In this document: piece by piece, positions 9,975 through 26,102 of the stretch
How positions within the stretch are numbered: position 1 is the stretch's first letter
Layout of the letters: each line of letters opens with the position of its first letter
Source of the DNA: a virus
Direction: 5' to 3' (one strand)
IMG/VR virus record: IMGVR_UViG_3300033150_002117
Location: 1 to 35,326 of that record
DNA length: 35,326 bases
The notes under the pieces: generated by a model
The model's input: the letters and a program-made list of their open reading frames with translations, nothing else
What the model was told of the DNA's origin: nothing
The model's database searches: none
Translations under genes and position numbers: made by a program

Positions 9975-10301
9975 ATGGTAGGAAAACTTTACACCCTAAT
10001 CTGGCCGGATGGCTCCCTATGCCTGGCCCCGCACCTGAAAGCGCAGCCTTTCCCGGACGAAGAAATCAAGACCTCCAGCCTGCTTGAGCCGATCGTGGGG
10101 TGGTCGGACGTTGTTACGGCGCTCAACGATCTTGCGCTGTATGCCCGGCTCGGAGGGCAGCTTCCCGAAGTCTGGGAGCTTGAAATCCTTGCAGGAGCCA
10201 CCGAGCTTGTCCCGCAAGGAGCCGTAAAAGGCGGCCTGTGGCGACATCCACACTTCATTGCCTGCAAAAAAGCCCGATTTGTAAGGAAAATAGCCCCTTG
10301 A
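9975..10301 (+). CDS. Divergent member of the PGKW paralog family, unknown function
   Basis: A 108-residue protein with GAGGAGGGACAGCC before its ATG. It starts VGKLYTLIWPDG, has a middle LPEVWELEILAGATELV and ends CKKARFVRKIAP. This follows the layout of the repeated family described for 11233-11682 and 17730-18155: an opening hydrophobic-Lys-Val strand, a central helix, then E-V/L-W-E, then a basic final strand. It lacks the PGKW and LFAF motifs, so its membership is tentative. Its TGA stop lies inside the -35 box of promoter P1. It is divergent from the small terminase gene. Confidence 0.7.
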   Translation: MVGKLYTLIWPDGSLCLAPHLKAQPFPDEEIKTSSLLEPIVGWSDVVTALNDLALYARLGGQLPEVWELEILAGATELVPQGAVKGGLWRHPHFIACKKARFVRKIAP

Positions 10302-10339
10302 CAAGTGGGAAGAGAATGTGGTATAATAATAGGTAGAGA
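10298..10339 (+). promoter_or_regulatory. Promoter P1 (TTGACA / TATAAT / GTAGAGA)
   Basis: The -35 TTGACA is at 10298-10303 and the -10 TATAAT at 10322-10327, with an 18-base spacer and TGG just before the -10 (extended -10). GTAGAGA at 10333-10339 lies 5 bases after the -10, at the expected transcription start. The same downstream box at the same distance follows P2, P3 and P4. The first RNA bases can form a hairpin, AGAGAAGT / ACTTCTCT at 10335-10356. Confidence 0.85.
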
Positions 10340-10390
10340 AGTTGAGGGACTTCTCTTTGGGAGTGTGAGCACTTTACAAGGAGGTGCACC

Positions 10391-10594
10391 ATGGCAAGGG
10401 ACGCAAAATCCGGAGCAAACAGGCATAGCATGCCTCATGTCGGCTCCCACTGTCCGGGAGGAGAAATCGATTACCTGATCGATACCGAACATGGGACGCG
10501 AGCGTTCCATATGCCGGTACATGACCCGGCAGCTCCCGGAAGCAGGGAAGCTCTAAGGCAGATACTTGACCGACTGAGGGAAAAAGGTTACTGA
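10391..10594 (+). CDS. Small hypothetical protein, first gene after P1
   Basis: A 67-residue hydrophilic protein starting MARDAKSGANRHSMPHVGSH and ending ILDRLREKGY. CAAGGAGG lies 7 bases before the ATG. It has several His residues and one Cys (SHCPGG), which are too few and irregular for a clear metal site. No family is recognised. It is the first gene of the P1 transcript, separated from P1 by a 5' hairpin, and is followed by a large inverted repeat at 10604-10693 that may end or structure the transcript. Confidence 0.75.
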   Translation: MARDAKSGANRHSMPHVGSHCPGGEIDYLIDTEHGTRAFHMPVHDPAAPGSREALRQILDRLREKGY

Positions 10595-10603
10595 AAGCAC
10601 GGC

Positions 10604-10700
10604 GGGGCCGGATGTCCTTGCTTGTGTAAATCTTGACTCCTCCAGAATGTAGCGATCTTGACTCCCTCTTTAACCTGCCTACCATCCGGCCCCCATTTTT
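10604..10700 (+). terminator. Long-armed stem-loop with T-run, terminator or structured RNA
   Basis: GGGGCCGGATG at 10604-10614 is perfectly complementary to CATCCGGCCCC at 10683-10693, followed by ATTTTT at 10695-10700. The stem of 11 bp plus T-run looks like an intrinsic terminator, but the 68-base loop is far longer than usual. The loop contains the direct repeat ATCTTGACTCC (10630 and 10655 area), whose CTCC/CCTCC parts are complementary to ribosome binding sites. It could be a terminator or a small regulatory RNA. Confidence 0.5.
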
Positions 10701-10777
10701 CTCAAAAAAAGAGATTGACAATAAAATATGTCTGCGAAGTCACTTACAGGAACAAAGAAGATGCGGAAGGTGACGCC

Positions 10778-11236
10778 ATGAATACCAGGATCGCTTTTAA
10801 GGCCGTTCGGAGAGAACAAAGATTGAAGTCCTTGTGGGCGGGGTGCTGGCATATCGCACCCGTTGAATACATTCCCGGCAGGTGGGTTTTCCCGAAAATT
10901 CCGGCCACTCCGCTTTTGTGTTTCGACCGGGCAAGCCTTGCCAGGCTGTGGCTTGACGAACTGTGGCCCGTAGTCGGACCGATTGAACTTTGGATGGTCG
11001 AAATGATTCCTGATGAGGATTACGGCAATTCGGTTCAGCTTTTGCTTGACCGGGGCGCGGATTACGACCAGATGCTCATAAAAGCGTTCTGGAGCTATTT
11101 TAGGGAGCCGAGGGAGGTCATTCCGACTCCAGGGGATTGGATCTTTCTTGCAGGACGGGAAGTTTTGGTCATGGGAGCGCCTGTAGGGACCGCAGGAGCT
11201 AAAGCTGTAAAGCTGATTGAGAGGATCGGACCATGA
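10778..11236 (+). CDS. PGKW paralog family member A
   Basis: A 152-residue protein. The five family motifs are visible in order: FKAVRRE (about residue 6), YIPGRW (34-39), PLLCFDRASLARLW (48-61), IELWMVEM (72-79), and KAFWSYF (about 107), then APVGTAGAKAVKLIERI at the end. The start at 10778 is preferred over the longer open frame from 10658 because the extra part would run through the terminator-like loop; a GAAGG-type binding site lies upstream but is weaker than most here. Its stop overlaps the next start (ATGA). Function unknown. It is adjacent to two further paralogs, which suggests tandem duplication. Confidence 0.75.
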   Translation: MNTRIAFKAVRREQRLKSLWAGCWHIAPVEYIPGRWVFPKIPATPLLCFDRASLARLWLDELWPVVGPIELWMVEMIPDEDYGNSVQLLLDRGADYDQMLIKAFWSYFREPREVIPTPGDWIFLAGREVLVMGAPVGTAGAKAVKLIERIGP

Positions 11237-11682
11237 AAAAAGGAATTGTTTGGAAGGTGGTGGAAAACAGAGGAGGACGCCTAATCTCAGCCATTATGAA
11301 ACACCCTTATATGGTCGAATATGCGCCAGGAGAGTGGACTGAAGGTAAGGCAGGACCGCTTTTTGCTTTTGACAATCCGCAAGACGCGCGGGATTGGATA
11401 GGTGACGACGATAAATATGCTGAAATATGGGAATGCGAAGCGGAAGAGATACGGCGAGTCGACTCTGCACTCTGCACAGTGTCTATGTATTGCGTAGAGC
11501 CCAAAGATGTCAAGGAATGGTGGAACGAACATCTCGCGTTGGGAACGGAAGTGGGATGTCTTTCTGGGACGGTTGTCTGCGAAAGGATCAAGTTGATAAG
11601 GAGGATCTGGAAATGGAACAGCTCAACGGACAGTTGGACGAATGGTCGATCAGTTACTACACCGGAGCGCTCGAAGCAATGA
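11233..11682 (+). CDS. PGKW paralog family member B
   Basis: A 149-residue protein with all family motifs: WKVVENRGGRL at the start, EYAPGEW (about residues 32-38), GPLFAFDNPQDARDWI (43-58), AEIWECEAEEIRRV (65-78), VKEWWNEHL (about 95) and LSGTVVCERIKLIRRI near the end. It overlaps gene A by 4 bases (ATGA) and runs 70 bases into the next gene, so the last 20 or so residues lie beyond the conserved core. No catalytic motif is seen. The alternation of short strands with one helix suggests a small single-domain fold of the kind seen in DUF7666-type phage proteins, but that similarity is only one of layout. Confidence 0.8.
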   Translation: MKKGIVWKVVENRGGRLISAIMKHPYMVEYAPGEWTEGKAGPLFAFDNPQDARDWIGDDDKYAEIWECEAEEIRRVDSALCTVSMYCVEPKDVKEWWNEHLALGTEVGCLSGTVVCERIKLIRRIWKWNSSTDSWTNGRSVTTPERSKQ

Positions 11683-11957
11683 AGCGGGAGTTTGAGGACC
11701 TCAAGCGGTCGTTGAACTTTGCAATGCGAACGCTCCGATGGTTTGAGTGCAGGTTCAAGCAGTTTGAGACCTTGTTTAAGCACCTTGCCGCCGGGACCTG
11801 GAAGCCTATGGCCACAGCTCCCACGAACGGAAAGCCGGTGCTCCTTAAGCTGTCAAGTGGAGAGTTTGTCGTTGCCAGGTGGGAGAACGACAGGTGGGAG
11901 GTCATTTCGGAAGACGTTGAGCTTAAGCCGATAGCTTGGGCGGAGCCCCTGGAATGA
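11613..11957 (+). CDS. DUF551-like C-terminal domain protein
   Basis: A 114-residue protein. The ATG at 11613 has AAGGAGG 8 bases before it; a longer frame from 11427 has no binding site and is rejected. Residues 1-60 are helical and probably coiled coil (EAMKREFEDLKRSLNFAMRTL). Residues 65-114 read WKPMATAPTNGKPVLLKLSSG (in part WKPMATAPTNGKPVLL), then FVVARWENDRWEV and PIAWAEPLE. This matches the DUF551 pattern of W-x-P-M, A-P-x-x-G, a valine/leucine strand, and a final W-x-x-L/P. DUF551 proteins are common in phage accessory regions and have no known function. The stop overlaps the next start by ATGA. Confidence 0.75.
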   Translation: MEQLNGQLDEWSISYYTGALEAMKREFEDLKRSLNFAMRTLRWFECRFKQFETLFKHLAAGTWKPMATAPTNGKPVLLKLSSGEFVVARWENDRWEVISEDVELKPIAWAEPLE

Positions 11958-12349
11958 AGAAGAAACGTACCGTCTGGAAAGTCGTTCGCAGATGCAAGGA
12001 CGGGCTGCTTCGGTCGGCCTGGGTGCTTACAGCGCAGGTGGTTTATGTCCCCGGAAAGGTGACCGCCACCTTCACCGGGCCGCTCTTTGCTTTTGAGAGC
12101 CTGAAAGATGCCGAATGGTGGAGGACAAGCTGGCACGCAAGAGGGTGGCCTCTTGAGGTCTGGAAGGCTTACGGAGCAGGGATAAGGAAAGTCCCGGCCA
12201 TTTTGGATCTACCCCTTGATCACTCGGTTCATGGATATGAAATCGCTGAGTGGTGGGCTGGGAGGAGAAAGCCGCCAAGCAAGCTGGTCTTTCCGCCGGT
12301 CGGGACGGTTATCTGCGATAAGTTGGTGCTTCTAAGGAGATACGCCTGA
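11954..12349 (+). CDS. PGKW paralog family member C
   Basis: A 131-residue protein. Motifs in order: WKVVRRCKDGLLRSAW (about residues 6-21), VYVPGKV (32-38; here Val replaces the usual Trp), TGPLFAFESLKDAEWW (42-57), LEVWKAYGAGIRKV (68-81), IAEWWAGR (about 100) and PPVGTVICDKLVLLRR at the end. The ATG at 11954 overlaps the previous stop; a longer frame starting TTG at 11936 is rejected because it lies inside the DUF551-like gene. The stop overlaps the next start (TGATG). The change of the W in the PGKW motif is the main departure from the family. Function unknown. Confidence 0.8.
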   Translation: MKKKRTVWKVVRRCKDGLLRSAWVLTAQVVYVPGKVTATFTGPLFAFESLKDAEWWRTSWHARGWPLEVWKAYGAGIRKVPAILDLPLDHSVHGYEIAEWWAGRRKPPSKLVFPPVGTVICDKLVLLRRYA

Positions 12350-12765
12350 TGAGTGGGAAGAAGAGAGATCTGCTCCGGGTGCTTGTTGACCTTGACGCTC
12401 CTGCAAATGTCTACAACGCAGGGTGGCTTATCTCCTGGGTCAAGAACGGGTGGACCTCAGGTCATGCCGAAATATCTGAGGGTGAGGATCCTGAGAATCC
12501 ATCAAGGGCTACCGCTGAATGGTACTACGACCAGCAGGCCGGAGGCTGGTGGCAGCTTGATTGGCTTACAGGCGGGAAGCATTGGGTCAATTTCTGGGGC
12601 GAATACAAACGAGGAAGGGCGATCGTGACAGAGGTCATCCTCGGCTGCGATAAGTCCAAGAGGTTCTACCCCAGGGTGAGAGAAGTCCTGAAACAGTATG
12701 GAATAAAGTTCCGAAGAAGAAAGGAGGCAGAAAATGAGAAAGCTACTACAAATCGCGATCTGTAG
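12349..12765 (+). CDS. Tryptophan-rich hypothetical protein
   Basis: A 138-residue protein with no recognised family. Residues 10-60 read LRVLVDLDAPANVYNAGWLISWV and GWTSGHAEISEGED in parts, and the middle is very rich in Trp and Gly (GGWWQLDWLTGGKHWVNFWGEY, quoted in parts GGWWQLDWL and HWVNFWGEY). The C-terminal 40 residues are basic. No membrane segment or signal peptide is seen. It is coupled to gene C by TGATG and its end overlaps the lipoprotein gene by 32 bases, so it is part of the same transcript. The Trp-rich core could bind a peptide, sugar or nucleic acid, but nothing in the sequence decides this. Confidence 0.75.
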   Translation: MSGKKRDLLRVLVDLDAPANVYNAGWLISWVKNGWTSGHAEISEGEDPENPSRATAEWYYDQQAGGWWQLDWLTGGKHWVNFWGEYKRGRAIVTEVILGCDKSKRFYPRVREVLKQYGIKFRRRKEAENEKATTNRDL

Positions 12766-13252
12766 TATGTTGGCCGGGTGCCAGGCTCGTTATATGACCT
12801 CGGAGGTTCCCGAACGACTGACTTCTGAAACCGGGCCGGGATGGGGACAAGTCACAAAGCCGATAAGGGAAATCCGGGTGCCGGAAGTGAAGAGAAAAAG
12901 CCAGGAGGCCGAGCTTGTCGAAAAGCTGCTCAGCTTGGGGTGGAGTGTGCAGGAAGCTAAGCCTAAATACGTCATAGCTGAAAAGCTCATGACGCCGGAA
13001 GAGGCCGCCGTGATCTTCGCCTCTGACCTGCCCGGAGAACCCCAAAGACTTAAGCTGGAACTGCACCTTATCAGGTGGAAAAACGGGAAGTGGAGCATCG
13101 AAGGAATAGTTGCCGAAAAACCAAGAGGCCAAATACCCGTCGCTGTGCTCTCAGGACTTAAAGCCGAAAAGGTCGCAGACCTCGTGCAAGAGCAGCTTGA
13201 CAGGGCTGAACGAAGAGAAAATCCACCCCAGAACAAAGCGGTCAAATTTTGA
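12734..13252 (+). CDS. Phage-encoded lipoprotein, possible superinfection exclusion
   Basis: A 172-residue protein with a type II signal peptide: MRKLL, a hydrophobic stretch, and the lipobox MLAGC, with the lipidated Cys at residue 16. The mature part is hydrophilic with a WKNGKWSIEGIVAEK strand pair near residues 116-130 and a charged C-terminus. AAAGGAGG precedes the ATG. Lipoproteins made outside the lysis cassette are known from T5 (Llp) and other phages, where they block receptors against a second infection; that role here is inference from the signal peptide and its accessory location. It ends the P1 operon. A dyad (GGTCAAATTTTGACC) overlaps the stop codon. Confidence 0.8.
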   Translation: MRKLLQIAICSMLAGCQARYMTSEVPERLTSETGPGWGQVTKPIREIRVPEVKRKSQEAELVEKLLSLGWSVQEAKPKYVIAEKLMTPEEAAVIFASDLPGEPQRLKLELHLIRWKNGKWSIEGIVAEKPRGQIPVAVLSGLKAEKVADLVQEQLDRAERRENPPQNKAVKF

Positions 13253-13258
13253 CCACTT
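13235..13258. repeat. Dyad operator-like repeat, copy 1
   Basis: A 24-base element containing GGTCAAA-T-TTTGACC (13240-13254). It recurs at 13496-13519 with two mismatches. It overlaps the stop codon of the lipoprotein gene. Confidence 0.55.
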
Positions 13259-13495
13259 CGAAAATTCCGGTCACTGGTTCGTTCACAGGTTTCTTCGCGT
13301 GTCTCTTGCTCCCCCCTATAACCCCCCTTAGGGGCCTTATATAAATCCGAACGCCCTCTGGTGGATGGAGGAGGGTCTGGGGGGAACCATGAACAGTTTC
13401 ACATGTCATTCCGGCAGGAAGAGAATCTAAAAACCGGCCTCTATTTGGCCAAGCCACCAAAGATGCCTGCCAAATTGGCATTGAATAGAAAATCG

Positions 13496-13519
13496 AAAGC
13501 GGTCAAAATTTGGCCACTT
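13496..13519. repeat. Dyad operator-like repeat, copy 2
   Basis: Second copy of the 24-base element of 13235-13258, with the dyad GGTCAAAATTTGGCC at 13501-13515. The two copies are 261 bases apart and in the same orientation. Conservation in non-coding DNA suggests a protein-binding site. Confidence 0.55.
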
Positions 13520-13680
13520 TGTCCGTTCAAGAGGCCGACCCCTCCCTGCAAAAGGCCCTTTTACCTACCTGAGCAGAATGGGACCGGGCCTTCTGTGACT
13601 GCCACCGACGGCTTTCTACACCCCACCCACCCTCCCGAACCAACGCTGAGTAGGAAAAGAGCCTTCTTCTACCAAGCCGA

Positions 13681-13756
13681 GGTCGCTACGCTCCCAGGAG
13701 CTCGCTAACGCTCGCGGAAGGTCGTTACACTCGCGGAAGCTCGCTAACGCTCGCGG
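13681..13756. repeat. Short tandem repeat, about 20-bp unit
   Basis: Four imperfect copies of a unit close to GGAAGCTCGCTAACGCTCGC lie head to tail. A diverged fifth copy (GAGCTGGCTAATGCTCC) is near 13953. No function is apparent. Confidence 0.7.
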
Positions 13757-14940
13757 GCCAAAAACCCACCAAAAAACCAAAAGGCCGTCAGAAGCCGCCA
13801 GAAGCCGCCTGATCGCTCCAGAGCTCAAAATCAACCCTACCCACAGGCCCACCCCAGAAAAACGATCAGAACGCACGAGACGCGACGAGAGGGGCTGTTA
13901 CAAGGTGAGAAGCCTCCCTAAATGGCAAAAAAGCAGAAAAACACCCCACTAAGAGCTGGCTAATGCTCCCGAAGGCGTGATAGGAGAAACAGCAGGACGA
14001 GGAAGGGAGGGAGGAAATTTGGTCACAGCTTACACCAAGCGGGCGCGCGAAACATGACCGTGGGAGGCCTTATCCCTCGGCTCGGGAGCCGATCCGGGAG
14101 CGGGAGAGTCGATCCGCCGGCGGGGAGGGGAGCCGAGGCCGAGGCAATCCTCCCGGCGGGGAGTTGGGGAGTCCGGGAGTCTCTGAAGCGGGGAGTCCGA
14201 ACTCTGGACTCAGAGTCTTAGTCTCTGAGCTATCCAGACTCGGAAGCCTAAGGAACTATAGAGCGCCTCTTAGACTCTATTACTATCGAAGGCCTTAGGA
14301 ACACTCAAGGCCTTATTAACATCTAAAGGCCTCCGATTCAGAGGTATATCAGCTATCGGAGGCCGAGAGACTATATAGCGCGGAGTGACACAAGGCCCTC
14401 AGAGGCTCTCTCGTCCGCTCTCTTCGCTTTTCTCTGCACTCGACCGATGATATTCAGAGGGAGGCGGAAAGCGAACACAGAGCCTCTCATGCGGTCAATA
14501 TGTTGACTATGAACGCACGTTAACCGCGGTTAGGTCTATGTTAGTGCTTCGGGAAGCCGCAAGGCCGTCGAATCCGCCTCTTGTTTGTACGGACTCCGGG
14601 AGGGACTCCTGAACCGAGCTGTCTACGGACTCCCGCAGAGTCTCCCGCAGGAACTCGGGAAGGCGCTCCCGGAGAGTCTCCCGTAGGGAAGCGGGAACCG
14701 AGTCCGGAACCGAAGCGGGAACCGAGTTGGGAAGCTTCTCGGCCTTATTTCTCTTCGCACTCGGAAGGCGGTTTTTGACTCCCGAAGCGGGAAGAGAGGC
14801 GACAAGACTCTGGCGCAGAGTGCAGGGGAGTCAAGGCCGAAGAGGCCGAAGAAGAACAGACGAAGAGAATAAGCGCCAGATAGTTGGGGGGGTAGAGGCC
14901 TTATTTCTCTTCCCACTTGAGAGACGTCGGCGTCACAACA

Positions 14941-15028
14941 GTATCACAACGTGATACACAACGCGTCCGCTCCGGAGTGTGTCATTTTAGTCACACTCGG
15001 GTTGCGGGAAGGCGGGTCTGAACCCGCC
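14941..15028. repeat. Cluster of three inverted repeats
   Basis: Three dyads follow each other: GTATCAC-aac-GTGATAC (14941-14957), GAGTGTG with CACACTC (14975-14998, 10-base centre) and GGCGGGT-ctga-ACCCGCC (15011-15028). None has a T-run, so they are not obvious terminators. They lie directly before the 48-bp repeats and P2, which makes operator or origin roles plausible. Confidence 0.65.
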
Positions 15029-15031
15029 GCT

Positions 15032-15145
15032 CCCCATCTATATATAGATGTATATAGGGAGCGCCTTCGGAGTGCCTCTCCCCATCTATATATAGATGTA
15101 TATAGGGAGCGCCTTCGGAGTGCCTCTCCCCATCTATATATAGAT
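15032..15145. repeat. 48-bp tandem repeats, each with a 14-bp palindrome
   Basis: Two complete identical 48-base units (15032-15079 and 15080-15127) and a partial third (15128-15145). Each copy contains the perfect palindrome ATCTATATATAGAT. Flanking GCTCCC and GGGAGC can form a larger stem around it in the full units. Direct repeats of a palindromic AT-rich site just before a promoter (P2) are typical of operators or origin iterons. Confidence 0.85.
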
Positions 15146-15151
15146 CGCTCC

Positions 15152-15225
15152 CGGATTAATTTTCGTTCAGTGCGCATTTTTTCTGTTGACGATCGGCCGC
15201 GGGAGCGTATAATAAAATGTAGAGA
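15152..15225 (+). promoter_or_regulatory. Promoter P2 with upstream element shared with P4
   Basis: The -35 TTGACG is at 15186-15191 and the -10 TATAAT at 15208-15213 (16-base spacer). GTAGAGA at 15219-15225 is 5 bases after the -10. The 34 bases before the -35 (15152-15185, beginning CGGATTAATT) match those before P4 (21811-21844) at 25 of 34 positions without gaps, suggesting an UP element or activator site. Confidence 0.85.
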
Positions 15226-15232
15226 CAAGAGA

Positions 15233-15294: not shown

Positions 15295-15582
15295 GTGAGA
15301 GTCAAACTCAACTCCAACAAAGAGGCACTCCTTAACGCAAGACTCTTTCTGTCTCCGTATCAGGAGGAGTCTTTTTTCGTATGGAAGGCTCTCGATCGGA
15401 TTTCCCGCTTTGTCCGATCGGGAGGTTGGGAATCCGATACTGAGGTCAAGCTTTTTCTTTGGGAGCTCGCCAACCTCGGTCAAGGTGCCTGGGAAGCCGG
15501 AGACTCGGTCGGTGCCCAAGCGATTGCCGATTGCGTTGAGTCCGCTTGCCGAGCGCTCGGCCTTGAATCTCCGTGGAGCTAA
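15295..15582 (+). CDS. Orphan gene 1 of the 15.3-17.1 kb operon
   Basis: A 95-residue, mainly helical and mildly acidic protein with no recognised family. It starts with GTG after AGAGGAGGAGGC; no in-frame ATG lies close to that site. It contains EESFFVWKALDRISRFV and FLWELANLGQGAW, which look like amphipathic helices. It is the first gene after P2. Base use differs from genes on either side: frequent TCC/TCT Ser, CGA/CGG Arg and the words GAGTC and CTCCG. The whole operon shares this. Small helical acidic proteins in early phage operons often act against host functions, but nothing here shows a target. Confidence 0.75.
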   Translation: MRVKLNSNKEALLNARLFLSPYQEESFFVWKALDRISRFVRSGGWESDTEVKLFLWELANLGQGAWEAGDSVGAQAIADCVESACRALGLESPWS

Positions 15583-15595
15583 GGGAGGTTGAGCT

Positions 15596-15868
15596 ATGCG
15601 TCGCGTCAAGCGAGTTAGTTGGATTGATTGGAGGCGCTATGGGTGGAAAGCCTTCGGAGGCCGCAACGTTTCCGCAATCGGGGAGGCGGGAAACGGCACC
15701 TATCTATCGGTCGAGTCTCAGGGAGGCCTTTACAAGCTTAAGGCCTCGTTGGTCCTGAACGGTCGTGTTGTGCGGGAGCTGGAGTCTGAAGCTTCCCGTA
15801 ATTGTTGGACTTGGGAGGCGATTGCGTTGATCGATCAGCTCGGGAGGTTGAGCTATGGACTATCCTGA
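15596..15868 (+). CDS. Orphan gene 2 of the 15.3-17.1 kb operon
   Basis: A 90-residue basic protein, not recognised. It begins MRRVKRVSWIDWRRYGWKAFGG and has a likely beta hairpin at residues 34-60 (GTYLSVESQGGLYKLKASLVL). GGGAGGTTGAGCT precedes the ATG; exactly the same 13 bases precede the next gene, so the translation signal has been duplicated or kept under selection. The C-terminus overlaps the next start by 14 bases. The Arg and Trp-rich N-terminus could bind nucleic acid, which is speculation. Confidence 0.75.
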   Translation: MRRVKRVSWIDWRRYGWKAFGGRNVSAIGEAGNGTYLSVESQGGLYKLKASLVLNGRVVRELESEASRNCWTWEAIALIDQLGRLSYGLS

Positions 15869-16109
15869 ACGTAGGCAAGCACTCTTGAAGGCGTACGAAT
15901 CCCTTTTGCTTCCCGCTCGGGATTCAAGCCGTTGTGCGGAGGCTTGCGCTATCGTACGCAAGGCCTTACGCAGAGGCGATTACTATTCCCGATCCGCTTT
16001 TGCTTCCGTAGTGGATCGGCTCCGGACTCTTGTGCGGGAGTGTCGCTACAAAGCGTCCTATGTGGATCTTCGGAAGGCATTAAGGATTTTAGAGGGAGGT
16101 AAGCTATGA
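15855..16109 (+). CDS. Orphan gene 3 of the 15.3-17.1 kb operon
   Basis: An 84-residue helical basic protein, not recognised. It includes RQALLKAYESLLLPARD, ACAIVRKALRRGDYY and VVDRLRTLVRECRYK, a series of probable short helices of similar length. The ATG at 15855 has GGGAGGTTGAGCT upstream, the same sequence as gene 2. The stop overlaps the next start by ATGA, so translation is coupled. No signal peptide or membrane segment. Confidence 0.75.
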   Translation: MDYPERRQALLKAYESLLLPARDSSRCAEACAIVRKALRRGDYYSRSAFASVVDRLRTLVRECRYKASYVDLRKALRILEGGKL

Positions 16110-16588
16110 ACGCTACAACACGATTAACAGTAGCTGACATTGGTCCTTGGTTCAGCACCCATCACCATACCGAGTCCGAGTTTGCCGAGTACTTGGCCGA
16201 TTTGCTCAAGGAGATATTTCCGACTCCGCCTCAGAGTCTTCTCGACGATCTTCGGGATTCGGACTCGGAGTTCTTGTCCGAAACGATCTGGGAAGCGATT
16301 GACAAGCTTCAGGAAATCGCTCCCGAGAATACGTACTTTGGGATTTCCGAGTCATACGGGGATTTCGGCCTTTGGTACAACTCTGAGGAGTTGGACGGTT
16401 TCCTGCGATTTGCTCTTGACCGATCGGACCTCCCGGCTTCGGTTAAGGCGATTCTCGAGAGTCTTCTTGAGGATCCGGAGCCATGGTTTTCTCTTCCCGA
16501 TCGGATTCGCCAGCTTCGGAAAGCCGGAGTCAAAGGCCTTGCCAACGAACTGCAGGATTTTTTGGTTAAAGAAAGGAGGGAGTCATGA
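16106..16588 (+). CDS. Orphan gene 4 of the 15.3-17.1 kb operon
   Basis: A 160-residue strongly acidic protein, the longest of this operon and not recognised. The N-terminus contains WFSTHHHTE; the middle is rich in Asp, Glu and Ser (LDDLRDSDSEFLSETIWEA, with GISESYGDFGLWYNSEEL after it); the C-terminus is helical. AGGGAGGTAAGCT precedes the ATG. The high acidity resembles DNA-mimic and anti-host proteins in some phages, but this is not evidence of function. It is coupled on both sides by ATGA overlaps. Confidence 0.78.
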   Translation: MNATTRLTVADIGPWFSTHHHTESEFAEYLADLLKEIFPTPPQSLLDDLRDSDSEFLSETIWEAIDKLQEIAPENTYFGISESYGDFGLWYNSEELDGFLRFALDRSDLPASVKAILESLLEDPEPWFSLPDRIRQLRKAGVKGLANELQDFLVKERRES

Positions 16589-16908
16589 AATCCTTGAGTT
16601 ACCAAGCGAAGCTTGAGGCCTTCGACGCTTTTGCGCAGGCAAGGCGGGAAATCTTACTAAACTATCGAGGCGTTTCCGATCCAGACAAGCTTGACGATCG
16701 AATCGCCTTTGACAGTGCAGTATCGAGTCTTGAGGATTTATTCTATTCCGTTCGGCTCTCAGACCAAGAAAAACTCCAGAGACTCCGTTCTTGGCTTCCC
16801 GCTTTGGGAGAATGGGAGTGCCACTATCAAGGGGAGCAGAGAGCGGAAGAGTGCGTATGGCGCCTTGCCGATTTGGTCGAGGAACTCATTGCAATCTTGG
16901 AAGCTTAA
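16585..16908 (+). CDS. Orphan gene 5 of the 15.3-17.1 kb operon
   Basis: A 107-residue helical acidic protein, not recognised. It opens MKSLSYQAKLEAFDAFAQAR and ends in RLADLVEELIAILEA, a probable amphipathic helix. A middle segment LYSVRLSDQEKLQRLRSWL-like (from FYSVRLSDQEKLQRLRSW) separates two helical parts. GAAAGGAGGGAGTC lies before the ATG at 16585, which overlaps the stop of gene 4. Confidence 0.78.
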   Translation: MKSLSYQAKLEAFDAFAQARREILLNYRGVSDPDKLDDRIAFDSAVSSLEDLFYSVRLSDQEKLQRLRSWLPALGEWECHYQGEQRAEECVWRLADLVEELIAILEA

Positions 16909-16919
16909 GAGGTGAGACT

Positions 16920-17362: not shown

Positions 17363-17476
17363 CACATTGTGCTATAGCACATTGTGCTCTATGCCTCCCT
17401 CTTGTGGCACAATGTGATATGACACATGGTGGTATGGCACTATGTGCTGCAGCACATTGTGATATGTCACGTGGTG
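17363..17476. repeat. Iteron array: CAC-NNN-GTG every 15 bp
   Basis: Nine-base dyads of the form CACNNNGTG start at 17363, 17378, 17408, 17423, 17438, 17453 and 17468, each followed by a 6-base spacer (often ATATGN or CTATAG). The missing step at 17393 keeps the phase but has lost the sequence, so the array is eight units with one decayed. The fixed 15-bp period, rather than 10.5 or 21, would place successive sites on different faces of the helix. Arrays like this bind replication initiators or repressors. Confidence 0.85.
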
Positions 17477-17650: not shown

Positions 17651-17691
17651 TTGACTTTTCTCTTCTCGTGTGGTATAATATAATGTAGAGA
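17651..17691 (+). promoter_or_regulatory. Promoter P3
   Basis: The -35 TTGACT is at 17651-17656 and the -10 TATAAT at 17674-17679 (17-base spacer, TGG before the -10). GTAGAGA at 17685-17691 is 5 bases after the -10, as in P1, P2 and P4. Copies of the AAAAGG-N5-TTACC motif flank it upstream (17530, 17554) and downstream (17696). Confidence 0.87.
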
Positions 17692-17729: not shown

Positions 17730-18155
17730 ATGCAGCTCGTCTACAAAGTCGTCTGTCGTCCCAGTTTCGGAGATCGCAAGCTTCGCAGCGTCATGCACCC
17801 GTTTGACGATTCAGCGGTGATCTATGAGCCCGGTAAGTGGACCCGGGCTCCTTTTGGAATGCTGTTTGCCTTTTCGTTTCGGGATCAAGCGGAACGGTTC
17901 CTATGGGGTGTTGCAGACGGTGAAGCTGAATATGAGCTCTGGGAGGCGGAAACTCCCTTTACCGCCCAGGTGGGACTAATCGTAAGTCCTGCCGAAAGTT
18001 ACACTTCGCTTTTTAAGGAGTTCTGGGAGAGATACTTTGCTGATATGGACGTCTTCCACTTGCCTATAGTTTCCGCCCCTGAGGGCACGGTGGGAGCTTA
18101 CAAGCTCCGCCTTACCCGCAAGCTGCTTTCAAGCGTAGAGGAACCGGAGGACTAA
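17730..18155 (+). CDS. PGKW paralog family member D, first gene after P3
   Basis: A 141-residue protein and a clear example of the family. Motifs: LVYKVVCRP (residues 3-11), IYEPGKWTRAPFGMLFAF (31-48), then ALERFLW-type helix (QAERFLWGV, 52-60), YELWEAETPF (about 69-78), FKEFWERYF (about 94-102) and APEGTVGAYKLRLTRKLL (116-133). CAAGGAGG precedes the ATG by 8 bases. The open strand-turn-strand then helix layout resembles DUF7666-type phage proteins in general shape; this is not a demonstrated homology. It is the leading gene of its transcript, as the family also is near P1. Confidence 0.85.
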   Translation: MQLVYKVVCRPSFGDRKLRSVMHPFDDSAVIYEPGKWTRAPFGMLFAFSFRDQAERFLWGVADGEAEYELWEAETPFTAQVGLIVSPAESYTSLFKEFWERYFADMDVFHLPIVSAPEGTVGAYKLRLTRKLLSSVEEPED

Positions 18156-19754: not shown

Positions 19755-20234
19755 ATGCGCATAGCTTACAAGCTCTTTCGCAGGATTGGAGGGGAGCTCA
19801 GACCCCTTGTCTACCCGCACCTACCGAAGAAGTACGCCGTGATCTATCACCCAGGCAAGTGGATCTCAGCGCCTGGTAAAAGTCGGTTTTTCCTGTTTGA
19901 TACATTGGATTCAGCCAAAACCGCTTTTGAGGATTGGGCTTTTGACCGACCGGTTGAGCTTTGGCAAGTGGCTTATTTAGGCAAGCTGCTACGTACCGAT
20001 TTGGTGGCGTTTATTGGAGGAGAGGACGGGTTTTCCCCTGTAATATGTAGTCGCAGATTCGCGACTTTCTGGAGGATCTTCCCGCCACGTAATTCCGACC
20101 GCCTATTTGAAGCCCTGCCCGCTCAATTGAGTTATGCCCCCTGGGGAACAATGACCGCCAAAAGGATAAAGCCGCTCAAGCTGCTTAAGAAAGGAGGACA
20201 AAAGCATGAAGGACCTACACTTGAGCAAAGATGA
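19755..20234 (+). CDS. PGKW paralog family member E
   Basis: A 159-residue protein with motifs YKLFRRIGGELRPLV (residues 5-19), VIYHPGKWISAPG (about 31-43), FFLFDTLDSAKTAFEDW (47-63), PVELWQVAYLGKLLRTDL (68-85), FATFWRIFPP (about 110) and APWGTMTAKRIKPLKLL near the end. AAGGAGTTGGAGCC precedes the ATG. It is the most complete member besides D. It overlaps the next gene by 29 bases. Function unknown. Confidence 0.83.
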   Translation: MRIAYKLFRRIGGELRPLVYPHLPKKYAVIYHPGKWISAPGKSRFFLFDTLDSAKTAFEDWAFDRPVELWQVAYLGKLLRTDLVAFIGGEDGFSPVICSRRFATFWRIFPPRNSDRLFEALPAQLSYAPWGTMTAKRIKPLKLLKKGGQKHEGPTLEQR

Positions 20235-20831: not shown

Positions 20832-20882
20832 GGTTTTCTCTACATGTGGCCCTTCACGCCTTTCTTCGCTCTAAGTCCTTAT

Positions 20883-20898
20883 AAAAGGCGAACTTACC
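20883..20898. repeat. AAAAGG-N5-TTACC motif
   Basis: AAAAGGCGAACTTACC. It lies just after CTAAGTCCTT. A degenerate copy follows at 20950-20966. Confidence 0.6.
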
Positions 20899-21206
20899 GA
20901 TCAAGCAGCGAAGAGAAACACTTGGCTTTCCGGTTTAATTTCCCTTCACAAAAGGCCGAAATCGCCCACTTGGGGTATCACACTGTGAAAAATCGCAGGG
21001 AAAAACTTCTTACGTGCCGATTTTCTGCTTTTACGGATGTCGCAAGTCCTTATGTGACACAGATTTAGGGCGAATCCCCTAAGTCCTTACGCTGTAGGAA
21101 CTTCTATAGTTGTGAACTTTCAGCGCAATCGTGTCACTGCTGCAAGTTCTGCTTTGGCAAGGACTTAGAGAAGTCGTGACATGCGGCACGTAGGCTTGTC
21201 GGTCAT

Positions 21207-21222
21207 AAAAGGCGAATTTACC
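21207..21222. repeat. AAAAGG-N5-TTACC motif
   Basis: AAAAGGCGAATTTACC, the copy closest to the consensus of all six. Confidence 0.6.
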
Positions 21223-21410
21223 CAGACTTATGTAACATGAATGCAATAACATGCGGCGGTGTAGAGCGAAGAGAAAAAGAAAGCCCGGGGCTTTTACTGA
21301 CCGGTTCCAGGTGGGAAAAGTCGCCAAAAGACACGGGTAGGTTTTCGCGAGGTGAGCCCCGGGCGTTGGAGGCTTTTTAGCGTAAAAGGTGCGATTTGCA
21401 GCTTTTCATG

Positions 21411-21626
21411 CTAAGTCTTCTTTTGGTTCGTGGTTACCTTGTTCTTTTTCCTGTCCCAAGGGCGAAGAGGCTTTCTGTTTTTCAGTTCGCTCAGTTGTAT
21501 GGCCCAGAGGCCCTCTATCTTCTCAGCTCGGAGAAGTTTATCGTGGATAAGTTGGTAGACTCTTCGCTTGGAGACGCCGAGCACTTTAGCGGCTTCTCCT
21601 GCAGGGATCCAGTTATTCTGAGTCAT
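21411..21626 (-). CDS. Helix-turn-helix protein, excisionase / MerR-like
   Basis: A 71-residue protein with a winged helix-turn-helix of the HTH_17 type: WIPAGEAAKVLGVSKRRVYQLIHDKLLRAEKIEGLWAI (quoted in parts: GEAAKVLGVSKRRVYQLI, then DKLLRAEKIEGLW, about residues 9-45). Such domains occur in phage excisionases and small regulators. The last 20 residues are basic. AGGGAGGAACAGGTC precedes the ATG. It has its own promoter (21759-21787), and a large folded leader. It faces away from P4 and is the only recognisable transcription regulator in the window, so it is the best candidate to bind one of the repeated motifs. Confidence 0.85.
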   Translation of the reverse strand: MTQNNWIPAGEAAKVLGVSKRRVYQLIHDKLLRAEKIEGLWAIQLSELKNRKPLRPWDRKKNKVTTNQKKT

Positions 21627-21655
21627 GACCTGTTCCTCCCTTTGGCCAAGATAAT

Positions 21656-21748
21656 GGGCGGCGGCTTTAGAAACACAGGCATGGGTTTTGGCCTTGGTGG
21701 CAGAGACCGTCTCTGCCGATTTATATACGCAGGCGACTGCCGCCGCCC
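21656..21748 (-). promoter_or_regulatory. Folded leader of the helix-turn-helix gene
   Basis: The leader RNA has two nested stems. Outer arms GGGCGGCGGC (RNA sense at 21748-21739) and GCCGCCGCCC (21665-21656) are perfectly complementary, and inside them is the perfect inverted repeat GGCAGAGAC-G-GTCTCTGCC (21717-21699 in RNA sense). The binding site follows the outer stem. This might be a riboswitch-like switch, a translation block, or a DNA operator for the inner palindrome. Confidence 0.6.
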
Positions 21749-21758
21749 GAGGGTATGT

Positions 21759-21787
21759 ATTGTACAGTAAAACGCAGAGAAATACAA
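21759..21787 (-). promoter_or_regulatory. Promoter of the helix-turn-helix gene
   Basis: On the minus strand: -35 TTGTAT (21787-21782), 17-base spacer, -10 TACAAT (21764-21759). It lacks the GTAGAGA box of P1-P4. It is divergent from P4, whose -35 is about 60 bases away, so a protein binding between them could control both. Confidence 0.75.
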
Positions 21788-21810
21788 GATTTTATACGCC
21801 GGACTCTTCT

Positions 21811-21886
21811 CGGGTTAATTCTTATTCAGGGTGCACTTTTGCACTTGACAAGAGGGCATAGACTATGGTATAAAGATATGTAGAGA
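21811..21886 (+). promoter_or_regulatory. Promoter P4 with the element shared with P2
   Basis: The -35 TTGACA is at 21845-21850 and the -10 TATAAA at 21869-21874 (18-base spacer, TGG before the -10). GTAGAGA at 21880-21886 is 5 bases after the -10. The preceding 34 bases (21811-21844) match the P2 element. A small hairpin, GGGC-aag-GCCC, lies at 21895-21905 before the ribosome binding site. Confidence 0.86.
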
Positions 21887-21918
21887 CTTACACAGGGCAA
21901 GGCCCAAAGGAGGCAGGA

Positions 21919-22173
21919 ATGATTGAACCGCAACCGGTTTACTGGGTGGAAGTCGGACAAAAAGAGCAAATCCTGGCCGATCTCGGTCCCTATTATTCGG
22001 AAGCTGAAGCAGACCGGGCCGGCTGGGAGGTCTTGGTCGATCTCCTACGGGAGGGGTTTCTCGGTGAAGAGCCCCTTCGGATTTACCGGCAAACAGGCGA
22101 TGAAGGCGCAGCCGTTTGGGCGGCTGACGCCTGGGTTGACGTTCGGGAGGAGTTCGAGGTTCCGGCGCTTTGA
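21919..22173 (+). CDS. First gene of the P4 operon, hypothetical acidic protein
   Basis: An 84-residue protein, strongly acidic, not recognised. It begins MIEPQPVYWVEVGQKEQIL, has AEADRAGWEVLVDLLREGF and ends WVDVREEFEVPAL. CAAAGGAGGCAGGA precedes the ATG; the frame from 21923 in another phase is rejected as it has no site. It follows P4 directly. Strand-helix-strand content suggests one small domain. Confidence 0.78.
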   Translation: MIEPQPVYWVEVGQKEQILADLGPYYSEAEADRAGWEVLVDLLREGFLGEEPLRIYRQTGDEGAAVWAADAWVDVREEFEVPAL

Positions 22174-22189
22174 GAAAGGGGGAGCAGAT

Positions 22190-22480
22190 ATGGAGCACAA
22201 ATACATCTTCAACGAGGGTGACGCCAAATTCTACGATTACAAAGAAGCCCTGGGGTTGGTGGCCAAGTATGAGCAGAGCAGGGAGCTTAAAGCGTACTTG
22301 GCTTTCCTTGAAGCCTGGGAGAGCGAGAAGACTAAGCCTTGGGAAGATTCGGCCTTACCTCCCGGGATTCAAGCTGACATAATCGGCTTTCTCCAGCGGT
22401 ATACCAACCCTCAAATGTATTGGGTCTCTGGCTATTACGGGGCGCATCTCAAACAGAGGATATGGAGGGCAAATGGCTAA
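22190..22480 (+). CDS. Hypothetical protein, P4 operon gene 2
   Basis: A 96-residue protein, not recognised. It begins MEHKYIFNEGDAKFYDYKEA and is helical through the middle (ALGLVAKYEQSRELKAYLAFL), ending MYWVSGYYGAHLKQRIWRANG in parts. The ATG at 22190 has AAAGGGGGAGCAGAT upstream, which decides against the longer frame beginning at 21923. It overlaps the next gene by 8 bases. Confidence 0.78.
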   Translation: MEHKYIFNEGDAKFYDYKEALGLVAKYEQSRELKAYLAFLEAWESEKTKPWEDSALPPGIQADIIGFLQRYTNPQMYWVSGYYGAHLKQRIWRANG

Positions 22481-22919
22481 GAAGAAAAGAACGAAGAAAG
22501 TCAAGGACGAGGAGCTTCAGAAACTTCCGCCTGTCCGGGTGGCGATCGCAGGGGAGGGAATCCCCGCGAATTTAGCCGAGTGGGGAATCACCTGGGAGCC
22601 AGAGGAGGAGATCCAGAAGCGGCTCCCGCTGCTTTGCAAGGTGCCCCGCCGGATGGGCTATTACGAGGCGTGGTTTCGGACCCGCAAGCAGGCTCAGGAG
22701 ATTGCAAACCTGCTTTGGAAGTACCGCTACGAGGTGGGGATTATTACGGCCCAATTGCCTTTGGCTTACCGCCTGATCCGGATGCTGCACAAGCGGGGCT
22801 TCCTGGTGCTGTTGCCGATCTTTGCAAGCGGGTTTCAGCTTGTGGATCTGATCCCGGCATATAGGGAGGACGTTGAGAAATGGGAGCTGATAAAGAGACA
22901 GTTATTAGGGAAACGCTGA
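22473..22919 (+). CDS. Hypothetical basic protein, P4 operon gene 3
   Basis: A 148-residue protein, not recognised. The N-terminus is very basic (MAKKKRTKKVKDEE). The body contains CKVPRRMGYYEAWFRTRKQA, a helix EIANLLWKYRYEV, and hydrophobic stretches LPLAYRLIRMLHKRGFLVLLP that are too short and too broken to be clear membrane segments. GGAGGGCAA precedes the ATG and the end overlaps the next gene by 40 bases. Confidence 0.78.
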   Translation: MAKKKRTKKVKDEELQKLPPVRVAIAGEGIPANLAEWGITWEPEEEIQKRLPLLCKVPRRMGYYEAWFRTRKQAQEIANLLWKYRYEVGIITAQLPLAYRLIRMLHKRGFLVLLPIFASGFQLVDLIPAYREDVEKWELIKRQLLGKR

Positions 22920-23116
22920 AGGAATTGCTGCTTGGAGCAAAACGGCTTGCGCCGGGCCGCTCGGCAGCCGTGTTGCTGCGGGAGGCGTGCCTAAAAGCGA
23001 TAACTACCGGCTACAAGCCGGAGAAGTTTCAAGAGGCGTGGGAACTTGTGGACGTTGCCGATCTTGAAGAGTTGACCGCTTTAATGGAAAGCTGGATCGA
23101 GGAGGAACAGCAATGA
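22880..23116 (+). CDS. Small helical protein, P4 operon gene 4
   Basis: A 78-residue helical, mildly acidic protein, not recognised: MGADKETVIRETLKELLLGA, AAVLLREACLKAITTGY and LVDVADLEELTALMESWIEEEQQ. GGGAGGACGTTGAGAA precedes the ATG. The stop overlaps the start of the annealing-protein gene by ATGA, so the two are co-translated; a partner role in recombination is possible but only inferred from that coupling. Confidence 0.75.
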   Translation: MGADKETVIRETLKELLLGAKRLAPGRSAAVLLREACLKAITTGYKPEKFQEAWELVDVADLEELTALMESWIEEEQQ

Positions 23117-24075
23117 GCGAAGCTGAAAAGGATACCAGAACCGAGCAGGAGGAGAAAGCCCTGGTTCTGAGTCCCGAGGACGTTGTGCAGCTTGAGCATA
23201 TCGAGCAGGCGGGGCTCTCAAAGCTCCTGCTGCCTCAGGAACCCCTTGGGCCGCAGACCCTTGAGCGGGCCAAGGAACGGCTCCAGATCCACCAGGGGCT
23301 CAAGCGGCTGGCCCTGCAGGCTACAAATCCCGGCGACTGGGTGATCTTCGGGGATAAGCCCTACCTTACCGACAAAGGCTGTCAGAAGTTCGCTGAGATT
23401 TACGGAATCTCGTTCCCTAAGATCGAGATTGAGGCAATGAGCTATCAGGACGAGAAAGGGCCGGTGGTTGAATTTTTCGCCACCGTGACGGCTGTTTACC
23501 AAAACCGGATTGAGACCGACAGCTCAAGCGCAGCTACAAGTGAGATTTTCTTCAACGGCGTTGACAAAGACGGCAAACCCCGCAGACTGCCGCTTAGCCT
23601 TATCAACCGGGCCGATGTCCGGAAAAAGGCCATCACGGGGGCCAAAGCACGGGTGGTGCGCAGGCTGCTTGGACTTAACTTTGAGCTCAGAGAGGTGGAG
23701 GACGCTCTGAAGGCTGCGGGGAAAGATCCCACCAAGATCCCCCGCGTGAGCTTCAAGGAGGGCAAAAAAGGCGGTAAGAAGCGCTCTAAAGGGAAAGAGA
23801 GCAAGGAAGAGAAAAACTACCGTGCCGAGATCGCCCGAATGCTCCTTGAGCTTACAGGCGGCGATAAAGAAGAGGCCGCCAACCTGCTTGAGCAGCTAAG
23901 CGCGTTTACAGCCTCAGACGGGCAGCCTGTAGCCGGCGTGCGTAGTCCTAAGAAACTTACCGATAACTGGGCGAGGATTACCTACGCCCGGGTCAAGGAT
24001 TACTACAACGAGAAGAAAGGAGCCCCTGCCGATGAAGGAAAACCTGCTTCAGAAGAGCCTGACACGCCATTTTAG
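23113..24075 (+). CDS. Putative single-strand annealing (recombination) protein
   Basis: A 320-residue protein that is probably a phage annealing protein of the Rad52/Erf/RecT-like group. Evidence: a core from about residue 76 (WVIFGDKPYLTDKGCQKFAEIYGI), a beta region with PVVEFFATVTAVY, then the helix DVRKKAITGAKARVVRRLLGL (168-188) of the type in such proteins, followed by a lysine-rich linker (215-235) and a helical C-terminal domain ending acidic (PADEGKPASEEPDTPF). The nuclease gene at 24354 lies downstream, the usual pairing of annealing protein with exonuclease. It would anneal single strands during recombination-dependent replication. The family is inferred, not shown by a search. Confidence 0.65.
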   Translation: MSEAEKDTRTEQEEKALVLSPEDVVQLEHIEQAGLSKLLLPQEPLGPQTLERAKERLQIHQGLKRLALQATNPGDWVIFGDKPYLTDKGCQKFAEIYGISFPKIEIEAMSYQDEKGPVVEFFATVTAVYQNRIETDSSSAATSEIFFNGVDKDGKPRRLPLSLINRADVRKKAITGAKARVVRRLLGLNFELREVEDALKAAGKDPTKIPRVSFKEGKKGGKKRSKGKESKEEKNYRAEIARMLLELTGGDKEEAANLLEQLSAFTASDGQPVAGVRSPKKLTDNWARITYARVKDYYNEKKGAPADEGKPASEEPDTPF

Positions 24076-24364
24076 CTGGGCATACCTTGAGCTCTGTGAA
24101 GCCGGAGCCCCTGAGAAGCTCTTAGAAGCCGCCTCAGAGCTTACAACAAGGTCGGAAGTGTCAGGGGCTTGGCGGGACGAAGCGCTGCTTAGAACGCTTC
24201 AGACGGACGCTGAAGACCTAAGCCTGGCAGTGGAAAACTACCTGAAGGATCACAATGTGACAGAGGAGCAGAATGCGTCTTACAGGGAGGTGCGGATCCT
24301 GCTTGAAGGCGCTCTTAGGCTGATTGAGGCTATGCAGCGAAAGGAGGCAACCAATGGACATTGA
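24032..24364 (+). CDS. Small protein between annealing protein and nuclease
   Basis: A 110-residue, helical, acidic protein, not recognised: RHFSWAYLELCEAGAPEKLL, DAEDLSLAVENYLKDHN and LEGALRLIEAMQRKE. The ATG at 24032 has GAAAGGAG 9 bases upstream and overlaps the annealing gene by 44 bases; its end overlaps the nuclease gene by 11 bases. The position between the two recombination genes suggests an accessory factor. Confidence 0.75.
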   Translation: MKENLLQKSLTRHFSWAYLELCEAGAPEKLLEAASELTTRSEVSGAWRDEALLRTLQTDAEDLSLAVENYLKDHNVTEEQNASYREVRILLEGALRLIEAMQRKEATNGH

Positions 24365-25310
24365 CCTGGTAAGGCAGGTGTACAAGTGGGTGGAAGATGA
24401 GCGGCAAAACTGGCCTGTGAATTCCAACCGGGCAAGTCAGCTTGGGGACGATTGCGAGCGGAAGCTGGTCTATTGGCGAACCCGCTGGCAGGAGGCTGCG
24501 CTTCCCAGTGTGGAGCTTTCGCTTATCTTCCGGGAGGGCCGCTACGCTGAAAAAGCGGTGCTTGATACGCTCAGGCAGGCAGGTGTGGAGGTGATAAGGG
24601 AGGGAGAACCGCTTTCCTGGCCTGAGTACCAGATCACCGGAAAGATCGACGCGATTGTGGCTGTGGATTCCAAGTACTATCCCCTTGAGATAAAGAGCTC
24701 AAGCCCGAACATCTGGCGCACCATAGCGTACATGGGGCCTGGAGTATATTCCTGGGAAGAGGTTAAGGAAGCCTTTGAGCGCAAGCCCTGGCTTCGGCGT
24801 TATCTTGCCCAGATCACCCTTTACATGCTCTGCTCTGAGCTTGAAGAGGGGATCATGCTTTTTAAGAACAAGTCAACCGGGGCGCTGTGTCAGATCAACG
24901 TGAACCTTGATTACGAGTACGCTGAGGGGCTTGTCAAACGCGCGGAGAGGATCAACAAGCACGTTGCAAACGGCACGCTTCCTGACCGGATCGAGTTTGA
25001 CCCTGAAGTGTGCCCCAAGTGCCCGTTCTTTCACCTCTGCCTGCCTGGGCATGACGCAAACAGCCCGTTGAAATACGTCTCGGACCAGTTCGCGGCCGAA
25101 AAGATCAAGCAGCTTCTCAAGCTCAAAGAGGCGTCGCAGGAATACAAGCGGCTTTACGAGTGGGTCAAAGAATGGGTTTGGGAAAAGCACCCTGAAGCTG
25201 ACAGGGTCACAGTGGGTGGAGATGTGATCATAGAGAAAAAACGCAGCAAGTCCGGAGCCAAGCTCATGAAGATCTCGGCGGCAACAGAGGAGGGCGAAAA
25301 TGGCAGTTGA
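24354..25310 (+). CDS. Cas4/RecB-like nuclease with probable Fe-S cluster
   Basis: A 318-residue PD-(D/E)XK nuclease. Asp99 in GKIDAIV, Glu112 and Lys114 in LEIKSS and Gln153 in AQITLY form the active-site pattern. Cys34 (GDDCERK) and Cys220, Cys223 and Cys229 (CPKCPFFHLC) fit the four-cysteine iron-sulfur site of Cas4 and AddB-type nucleases. It would resect DNA ends for the annealing protein. AAGGAGGCAACCA precedes the ATG at 24354; the longer frame from 24324 lacks a site. The C-terminal 90 residues are a helical extension with a basic end (KKRSKSGAK). Confidence 0.9.
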   Translation: MDIDLVRQVYKWVEDERQNWPVNSNRASQLGDDCERKLVYWRTRWQEAALPSVELSLIFREGRYAEKAVLDTLRQAGVEVIREGEPLSWPEYQITGKIDAIVAVDSKYYPLEIKSSSPNIWRTIAYMGPGVYSWEEVKEAFERKPWLRRYLAQITLYMLCSELEEGIMLFKNKSTGALCQINVNLDYEYAEGLVKRAERINKHVANGTLPDRIEFDPEVCPKCPFFHLCLPGHDANSPLKYVSDQFAAEKIKQLLKLKEASQEYKRLYEWVKEWVWEKHPEADRVTVGGDVIIEKKRSKSGAKLMKISAATEEGENGS

Positions 25311-25386
25311 GCTCCTGGACGAGCTGATAGCGGGCGTTAACGAGTTGGAAAAGGAGCTTGCGGATGCCAAGGAAACCGAAGACTAA
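25300..25386 (+). CDS. 28-residue microprotein
   Basis: MAVELLDELIAGVNELEKEL followed by ADAKETED: one acidic, probably coiled-coil helix. GAGGAGGGCGAAA precedes the ATG, 10 bases inside the end of the nuclease gene. Its own end overlaps the start of the next gene. It may be real or a by-product of the next gene's binding site; the good Shine-Dalgarno sequence favours real. Confidence 0.55.
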   Translation: MAVELLDELIAGVNELEKELADAKETED

Positions 25387-25651
25387 GTCACGCAGGACCA
25401 ACCGTTACCGGGTAGTGGCCATAAAGACCCGGCAGCAGGCTTGGATTGAAGCTCACGGCTTTATCATGGCCTCCATGCGGGGGGAGAATAGCTGGAAGAC
25501 CCGGGACGAGTACCTGGCTACGGCTGTTACTCTTGAACGGGTGGCGCAAGGCTGGGACAACCTGAAAAAAATGCGAATCCCGGCTGGGGAAACGGGCTTT
25601 GTTGAATGGAACGGCTCGGCATATATCCTAAGAACAAAGCTGCCGGAATAG
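25364..25651 (+). CDS. Small basic hypothetical protein
   Basis: A 95-residue protein, not recognised. The N-terminus is basic (MPRKPKTKSRRTNRYRVV), followed by TRQQAWIEAHGFIMAS, a central helix (EYLATAVTLERVAQGW) and a last strand pair (VEWNGSAYILRT). AAGGAGCTTGCGG precedes the ATG at 25364; an in-frame TTG at 25358 is less likely. It overlaps the microprotein gene. Confidence 0.78.
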   Translation: MPRKPKTKSRRTNRYRVVAIKTRQQAWIEAHGFIMASMRGENSWKTRDEYLATAVTLERVAQGWDNLKKMRIPAGETGFVEWNGSAYILRTKLPE

Positions 25652-25661
25652 GAGGAGCTCT

Positions 25662-26102
25662 GTGTATCAGCGCGCCTTTAAGGTCTGCTTCCTGCATAGG
25701 GGAAAACTTTACAGCGAGTTGGCCGCCCATCCGCGTAATCCGCTTAAAGCCGGAGAATGGATGGCGGCCCCGCGGGACGGATACTGGGTAGCTGTAAAGA
25801 CGCTAAGGCAGGCCCGTTATTGGCTGCATGAACTCCTGCCGAATGCTTATAAGATAAGGGTACCAGTGCCGAAGGTATACATCTCAAACACCGAAAGCTC
25901 ACCGCCTTGGAAGACTGATTTGAGGTACGTCACCTATAGACCGCTTATTGTTGAAGTGGAAAGTCCCAAGCCGTGGACCACGGTGGGTGCTCTTTTCGAC
26001 CGGACGGTTTCCGACGGCGAACTTATGTGGGCGAAAAGGCTGGAGTCCCTTGCCGTGTTTGCTTCGATCATGAGGGTGAAAAGGTTCGCTGAGATAGCGT
26101 AA
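25662..26102 (+). CDS. Divergent PGKW paralog family member F
   Basis: A 146-residue protein that keeps part of the family pattern: FKVCFLHRGKLYSELAAHP (residues 6-24), LKAGEWMAAP (about 28-37, matching PGKW), TLRQARYWLHELL (46-58), and a final MRVKRF. The E-L-W-E and GTV motifs are absent or changed (IRVPVPKVY, WTTVGALFDRTV). The start is GTG with GGAGGAGCTCT upstream. It is the only family member in the P4 operon. Membership is probable, not certain. Confidence 0.75.
   Translation: MYQRAFKVCFLHRGKLYSELAAHPRNPLKAGEWMAAPRDGYWVAVKTLRQARYWLHELLPNAYKIRVPVPKVYISNTESSPPWKTDLRYVTYRPLIVEVESPKPWTTVGALFDRTVSDGELMWAKRLESLAVFASIMRVKRFAEIA

Follow-up and report, generated by a model that had tools for sequence, protein, structure and literature searches.

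A dispersed family of divergent single-domain paralogs in an uncultured tailed phage, with a predicted fold resembling DUF7666 and the rIIB C-terminal domain

Introduction

What does a phage gain from several strongly diverged copies of one small orphan protein? The question is raised by an IMG/VR fragment, 35,326 bases long, from an uncultured tailed phage; the whole of it is referred to here as the window. Its structural module (terminase, portal, capsid, tail) runs leftward (200-9930) and faces a small-gene module that runs rightward (9975-30759). A sequence-only reading of this DNA saw, scattered over the small-gene module, five to seven paralogs with a common motif order and a DUF7666-type layout. 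They were assigned to three operons under coordinated promoters, and diversifying selection, as in anti-defence or receptor-directed families, was proposed to maintain them. The family, its predicted fold, its setting and its variation in a sister phage are described below, and lead to a tentative model for its function.

Members of the family

Profiles were built from any five of six complete members, the window proteins A to E (Table 1) and X, a copy from a sister contig, and used to search for the one left out. All six were recovered, with E-values from 2e-11 to 1e-21 (2e-17 for X). E stayed > 0.1 for the shuffled members and, F excepted, for all remaining six-frame ORFs of the window; the shuffle controls rule out a low-complexity artefact as the cause of the likeness. 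In an all-against-all BLASTP of the window proteins, E-values below 0.003 occurred solely within A-E (3e-13 for B and C). By these profile and pairwise comparisons, A-E are true paralogs, as had been proposed for the genes starting at 10778, 11233, 11954, 17730 and 19755. No two of them form a recent duplicate pair: pairwise identity is 22-33% among A-E, and lower, down to 20%, with X. A plausible ribosome-binding site precedes each of the five ORFs, and the reading frame of A is nested in a longer ORF starting at 10658.

Table 1. Family members, promoter-like sites and the exchanged stretch in the window
Feature	Position	Strand	Description
Paralog A	10778..11236	+	152 aa; leave-one-out HMM E 1.9e-12
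Paralog B	11233..11682	+	149 aa; 4-nt overlap with A; leave-one-out HMM E 1.2e-21
Paralog C	11954..12349	+	131 aa; leave-one-out HMM E 5e-17; AlphaFold model pTM 0.72
Paralog D	17730..18155	+	141 aa; first gene 3' of P3; leave-one-out HMM E 3.5e-19; AlphaFold model pTM 0.76
Paralog E	19755..20234	+	159 aa; closes the P3 operon; leave-one-out HMM E 2.4e-11
F, probable divergent member	25662..26102	+	146 aa; likeness confined to the N-terminal half
G, partial case of the sequence-only reading	9975-10301		candidate only; membership rejected
Promoter P1 (putative)	10298..10339	+	TTGACA-18-TATAAT + GTAGAGA; upstream of A-B-C; conserved in sister contig (L007)
Promoter P2 (putative)	15186..15225	+	same promoter set; followed by 15295-16908, a stretch without family members
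Promoter P3 (putative)	17651..17691	+	same promoter set; upstream of D...E
Promoter P4 (putative)	21845..21886	+	TATAAA variant; precedes the gene run 21919-26102, of which F is the last
Swapped stretch	12375..12601	+	227 bp of the window; sister (L007) has 461 bp with X (L004:9187-9630) instead

Two further proteins had been counted as partial members. F was the top non-member in every leave-one-out run (E 0.004-0.12) and with the full profile, and hhalign aligned its first 60 residues to the family with 55% probability (E 1.2e-4); it is probably a divergent or truncated relative. G was not recovered by the leave-one-out profiles and reached 1.8% in hhalign. Thus five copies stand, the gene at 25662 is a probable sixth, and the one at 9975 drops out.

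The members do have a common motif order, although a less strict one than had been described: of the six complete members, three have LFAF and two have PGKW. The invariant columns are a lysine in strand 1, Y-x-(P)-G, the last phenylalanine of "LFAF", a helix alanine, E-x-W, a tryptophan in the second helix, and GT; no catalytic pattern was found among these residues in the six-member alignment.

Searches with the models of Pfam, PHROG, NCBIfam and PADLOC gave no match to the family members, the PADLOC profiles including known anti-phage defence proteins, and the PDB gave no match by sequence. Only chance matches resulted from tblastn with B, D, X and the consensus against phages (matches in Pbunavirus and Noxifer were inspected and rejected as chance) and with the consensus against plasmids. 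Degenerate DNA patterns in IMG/VR retrieved the sister contig and otherwise cupins or chance frames. Neither B plus C nor the terminase retrieved a relative in scans of genome contigs, and viral scans with D and with the gene at 23113 found nothing.

Predicted fold

AlphaFold2 models of D (pLDDT 77) and C (pLDDT 75), computed from alignments of nine sequences each, show an identical order of elements; the two models agree. In both, a variable insert (about residues 77-118 of D; near 80-115 in the models) is poorly modelled, with pLDDT < 50.

Compared with viral proteins by Foldseek, the C and D models match the same set, consisting of DUF7666 proteins, rIIB proteins and unnamed single-domain proteins, with moderate TM-scores (0.4-0.56) and E-values mostly above 0.001. 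For DUF7666 the probability is as high as 1.00, but E is 0.01-0.6 and TM 0.35-0.44; for rIIB, which is among the oldest unsolved phage genes, the probability is 0.72-0.93. In the PDB, no match by fold had E < 0.3; the recurrent class with the best overlap was that of bacterial ADP-ribosyltransferase A subunits, whose overall topology is very weakly similar (TM ~0.36).

The family resembles DUF7666 in its invariant aromatic-Lys strand, in a glycine before the turn and possibly in its predicted fold, the DUF7666 strand "GFHxC" standing where the window family has "PLFAF". It differs in lacking the CxxGFHxC cysteines and in its long insert, which includes an FW helix. The C-terminal domain of T4-like rIIB likewise has a WKxVR strand, PG, a GLH strand and then a hydrophobic strand. 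However, the window proteins are stand-alone single domains of 131-159 aa, and the rIIB architecture of an N-terminal helix-turn-helix joined to a C-terminal WKxVR...GLHV domain is absent from them. Sequence comparison does not bridge these gaps: DUF7666 (PF24703) gave no match above Pfam's curated cut-off, none in a search of the window with PF24703, and 0.5% in hhalign, and rIIB reached no significance (hhalign 1.4%). Since the sequence tests fail, any relation to DUF7666 and rIIB would be one of fold only; the DUF7666-type layout noticed earlier is supported by the fold comparison of two members and by none of the sequence tests. The models suggest a DUF7666/rIIB-C-like fold for the family.

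A parallel expansion in phage XacN1

The best Foldseek matches of the two models (E 3.8e-5 and 2.2e-3) are proteins that seem to belong to one family, PHROG 13450. The better of these, the 172-aa protein A0A292GJ11, appears to be a paralog from the Xanthomonas jumbo phage XacN1, because its length and those of its siblings (152, 145 and 226 aa) exactly match four XacN1 ORFs that have the same motifs and all belong to PHROG 13450. The UniProt accessions taken in this way as putative XacN1 proteins are A0A292GJ11, A0A292GJF4, A0A292GA32 and A0A292GJ49. A profile search of XacN1 (AP018399) found six divergent PHROG 13450 paralogs, 23-34% identical. Five lie in tandem at about 307,945-310,449 (L071:15445-17949) and the sixth in a stretch that occurs twice in AP018399. 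With one of these paralogs, tblastn found no other phage, so that a second, unrelated phage has a private expansion.

Like the window family, the XacN1 proteins are small, mostly single-domain, private to one phage and present in tandem multiple copies, with the layout YKV ... G(L/I/F)H(S/A)(F/Y) ... A ... (S/T)xxL. The PHROG 13450 and XacN1 profiles do not match the window family (hhalign 1.2%); the hhalign score of 18.7 compares with at most 16.0 in 60 column-shuffled controls. XacN1 thus looks to hold its own, parallel expansion of apparently the same fold, and copying this fold again and again may be a strategy common among phages.

Promoters and gene neighbourhood

Four near-identical sigma70-type sites (P1-P4) have a TTGAC(N) box, separated by 16-18 bp from TATAAT or TATAAA, with GTAGAGA further downstream. 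A Markov control predicts 0.05 such sites per window, the pattern itself being derived from these four sites. Three of the four, P1, P3 and P4, precede the three operons that hold family copies, which bears out the coordinated promoters noticed before. Because of their sigma70 form the sites are read as putative early promoters; they are consensus matches.

Several other features lie nearby. A palindromic repeat array (17363-17476) with ~15-bp spacing (CACAnTGTG...CACATTGTG) lies 175 bp upstream of P3 and is possibly an operator, iteron or partition site; a ParB-like protein is encoded at 27732 in the same phage. Just 5' of P2 is a 48-bp tandem repeat of 2.6 copies (15026-15169). The 2 kb between the A-B-C operon and P2 (13250-15290) are dense in short G+C-rich repeats and contain no convincing gene. 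Other genes encode a Cas4-like exonuclease (24324-25310; PHROG 1990, E 1e-28), a D12-class adenine DNA methyltransferase (26742-27719) and a DUF7768/nucleoside deoxyribosyltransferase-like protein (29287-29910).

Cassette exchange and selection between sister phages

The sister contig IMGVR_UViG_3300033156_001193 (L004/L007), from the one sister phage with these loci, is 98% identical to the window over the structural genes. It holds A, B, C and, directly 3' of C, the additional copy X, which was found by the five-member profile at E 2.4e-18. The stretch with X is bounded by short flanks common to both phages, between which it is swapped for 227 bp of the window, X taking the place of part of a neighbouring gene; gene content thus varies by cassette replacement.

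A, B and C are the three copies for which selection could be estimated, from this one phage pair. Their pN/pS values are 0.27, 0.47 and 0.11, respectively, and 0.23 when pooled (binomial p 2e-6 against neutrality), versus a pooled 0.06 for the structural genes. The three genes are under purifying selection between the sister phages; they are functional and under weaker constraint than the virion genes. Their synonymous divergence is 8.6%, against 3.8% for the structural genes, which suggests mosaic exchange. The pair shows no sign of positive selection on the amino acids of A-C. The diversifying selection proposed earlier is therefore unsupported at the amino-acid level, pN/pS being well below 1, and the variation seen is in gene content.

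Possible functions

The identity of the family is well supported. The function that we infer for it, with a probability of roughly 0.4, is that of non-enzymatic, early-expressed binding proteins that serve host takeover or counter-defence, built on the predicted DUF7666/rIIB-C-like fold. The proteins are phage-private, stand-alone, single-domain paralogs, with a predicted beta sheet that opens with the aromatic-Lys strand; after it come the "Y-x-PG" loop, the "LFAF" strand, the helix with the invariant alanine, the "E-x-W" strand, the variable insert with the FW helix, and the final "GT...K" strand. They would be expressed early and do their work in the cytoplasm, without enzyme activity. The common core would be kept and specificity placed in the variable insert, so that each copy would bind a different host or defence factor and thereby promote takeover. 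Copies would be gained and lost as cassettes, not by rapid point change.

The fold comparison adds a possible precedent. T4 rIIB, with rIIA, is required for growth on lambda lysogens carrying RexAB (PMC9391042), and the DUF7666/rIIB-C fold therefore occurs in a counter-exclusion protein. The link to counter-defence is indirect, because rIIB has also been interpreted as a transcription factor (PMC7824862), a description that fits the main rival, in which the proteins have an accessory part in DNA metabolism or gene regulation of the phage itself (recombination, replication, the early-late switch) and are not directed at the host. The gene run that ends with F points the same way, as it includes the Cas4-like exonuclease and the product of 23113, which we take to be a putative single-strand annealing protein; so does Doucette gp39 (identified by its length of 209 aa), a weak match in the fold search, which adjoins RecE/RecT. 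This rival is nevertheless somewhat unlikely: A-E lie outside the recombination gene run, the Pfam search found a DNA-binding domain in no member, and five to six diverged copies with presence/absence in the sister would be expected of dispensable accessory genes more than of core replication factors.

A further candidate is a family of active ADP-ribosyltransferase-like enzymes that modify host targets in the way of T4 Alt and Mod. It is suggested by the PDB matches with the best overlap, in which ADP-ribosyltransferase A subunits are the sole class to recur, and by one DarT annotation among the viral Foldseek matches, but the Foldseek probability for this class is at most 0.21, strand 1 has an invariant lysine in place of the catalytic Arg or His, and neither the R-S-E or H-Y-E residues nor an S-T-S or E-x-E pattern is conserved, which makes it very improbable. 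Copy number, paralog divergence and gene-content change could reflect positive selection for anti-defence or receptor-directed functions. The low pN/pS in all three testable copies makes this explanation improbable, and a receptor-directed role is unlikely because the copies' operons lie behind sigma70-type promoters, apart from the structural module. An anti-defence role of the copies is possible, and pN/pS below 1 is also compatible with roles other than an arms race. Least probable is a lineage-specific expansion of copies with little function, kept mainly because cassettes are gained neutrally or selfishly; the replacement between short common flanks and the excess synonymous divergence count in its favour, but pN/pS of 0.11-0.47 and intact reading frames show maintained function.

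A wider version of the binding-protein model, in which unrelated phages independently expand the small, non-enzymatic DUF7666/rIIB-C fold into private sets of diverged early proteins, each copy with its own host or defence target, is speculative and on the whole unlikely. If true, the fold would be a general phage "adaptor scaffold", accounting at once for rIIB, DUF7666 and these orphan families. Two unrelated phages each have a multi-copy orphan family, and the finding connects both with the rIIB fold and DUF7666. Should this fold prove to be a binding scaffold that phages reuse, host-takeover or counter-defence roles would become testable for a large class of phage proteins that lack annotation.
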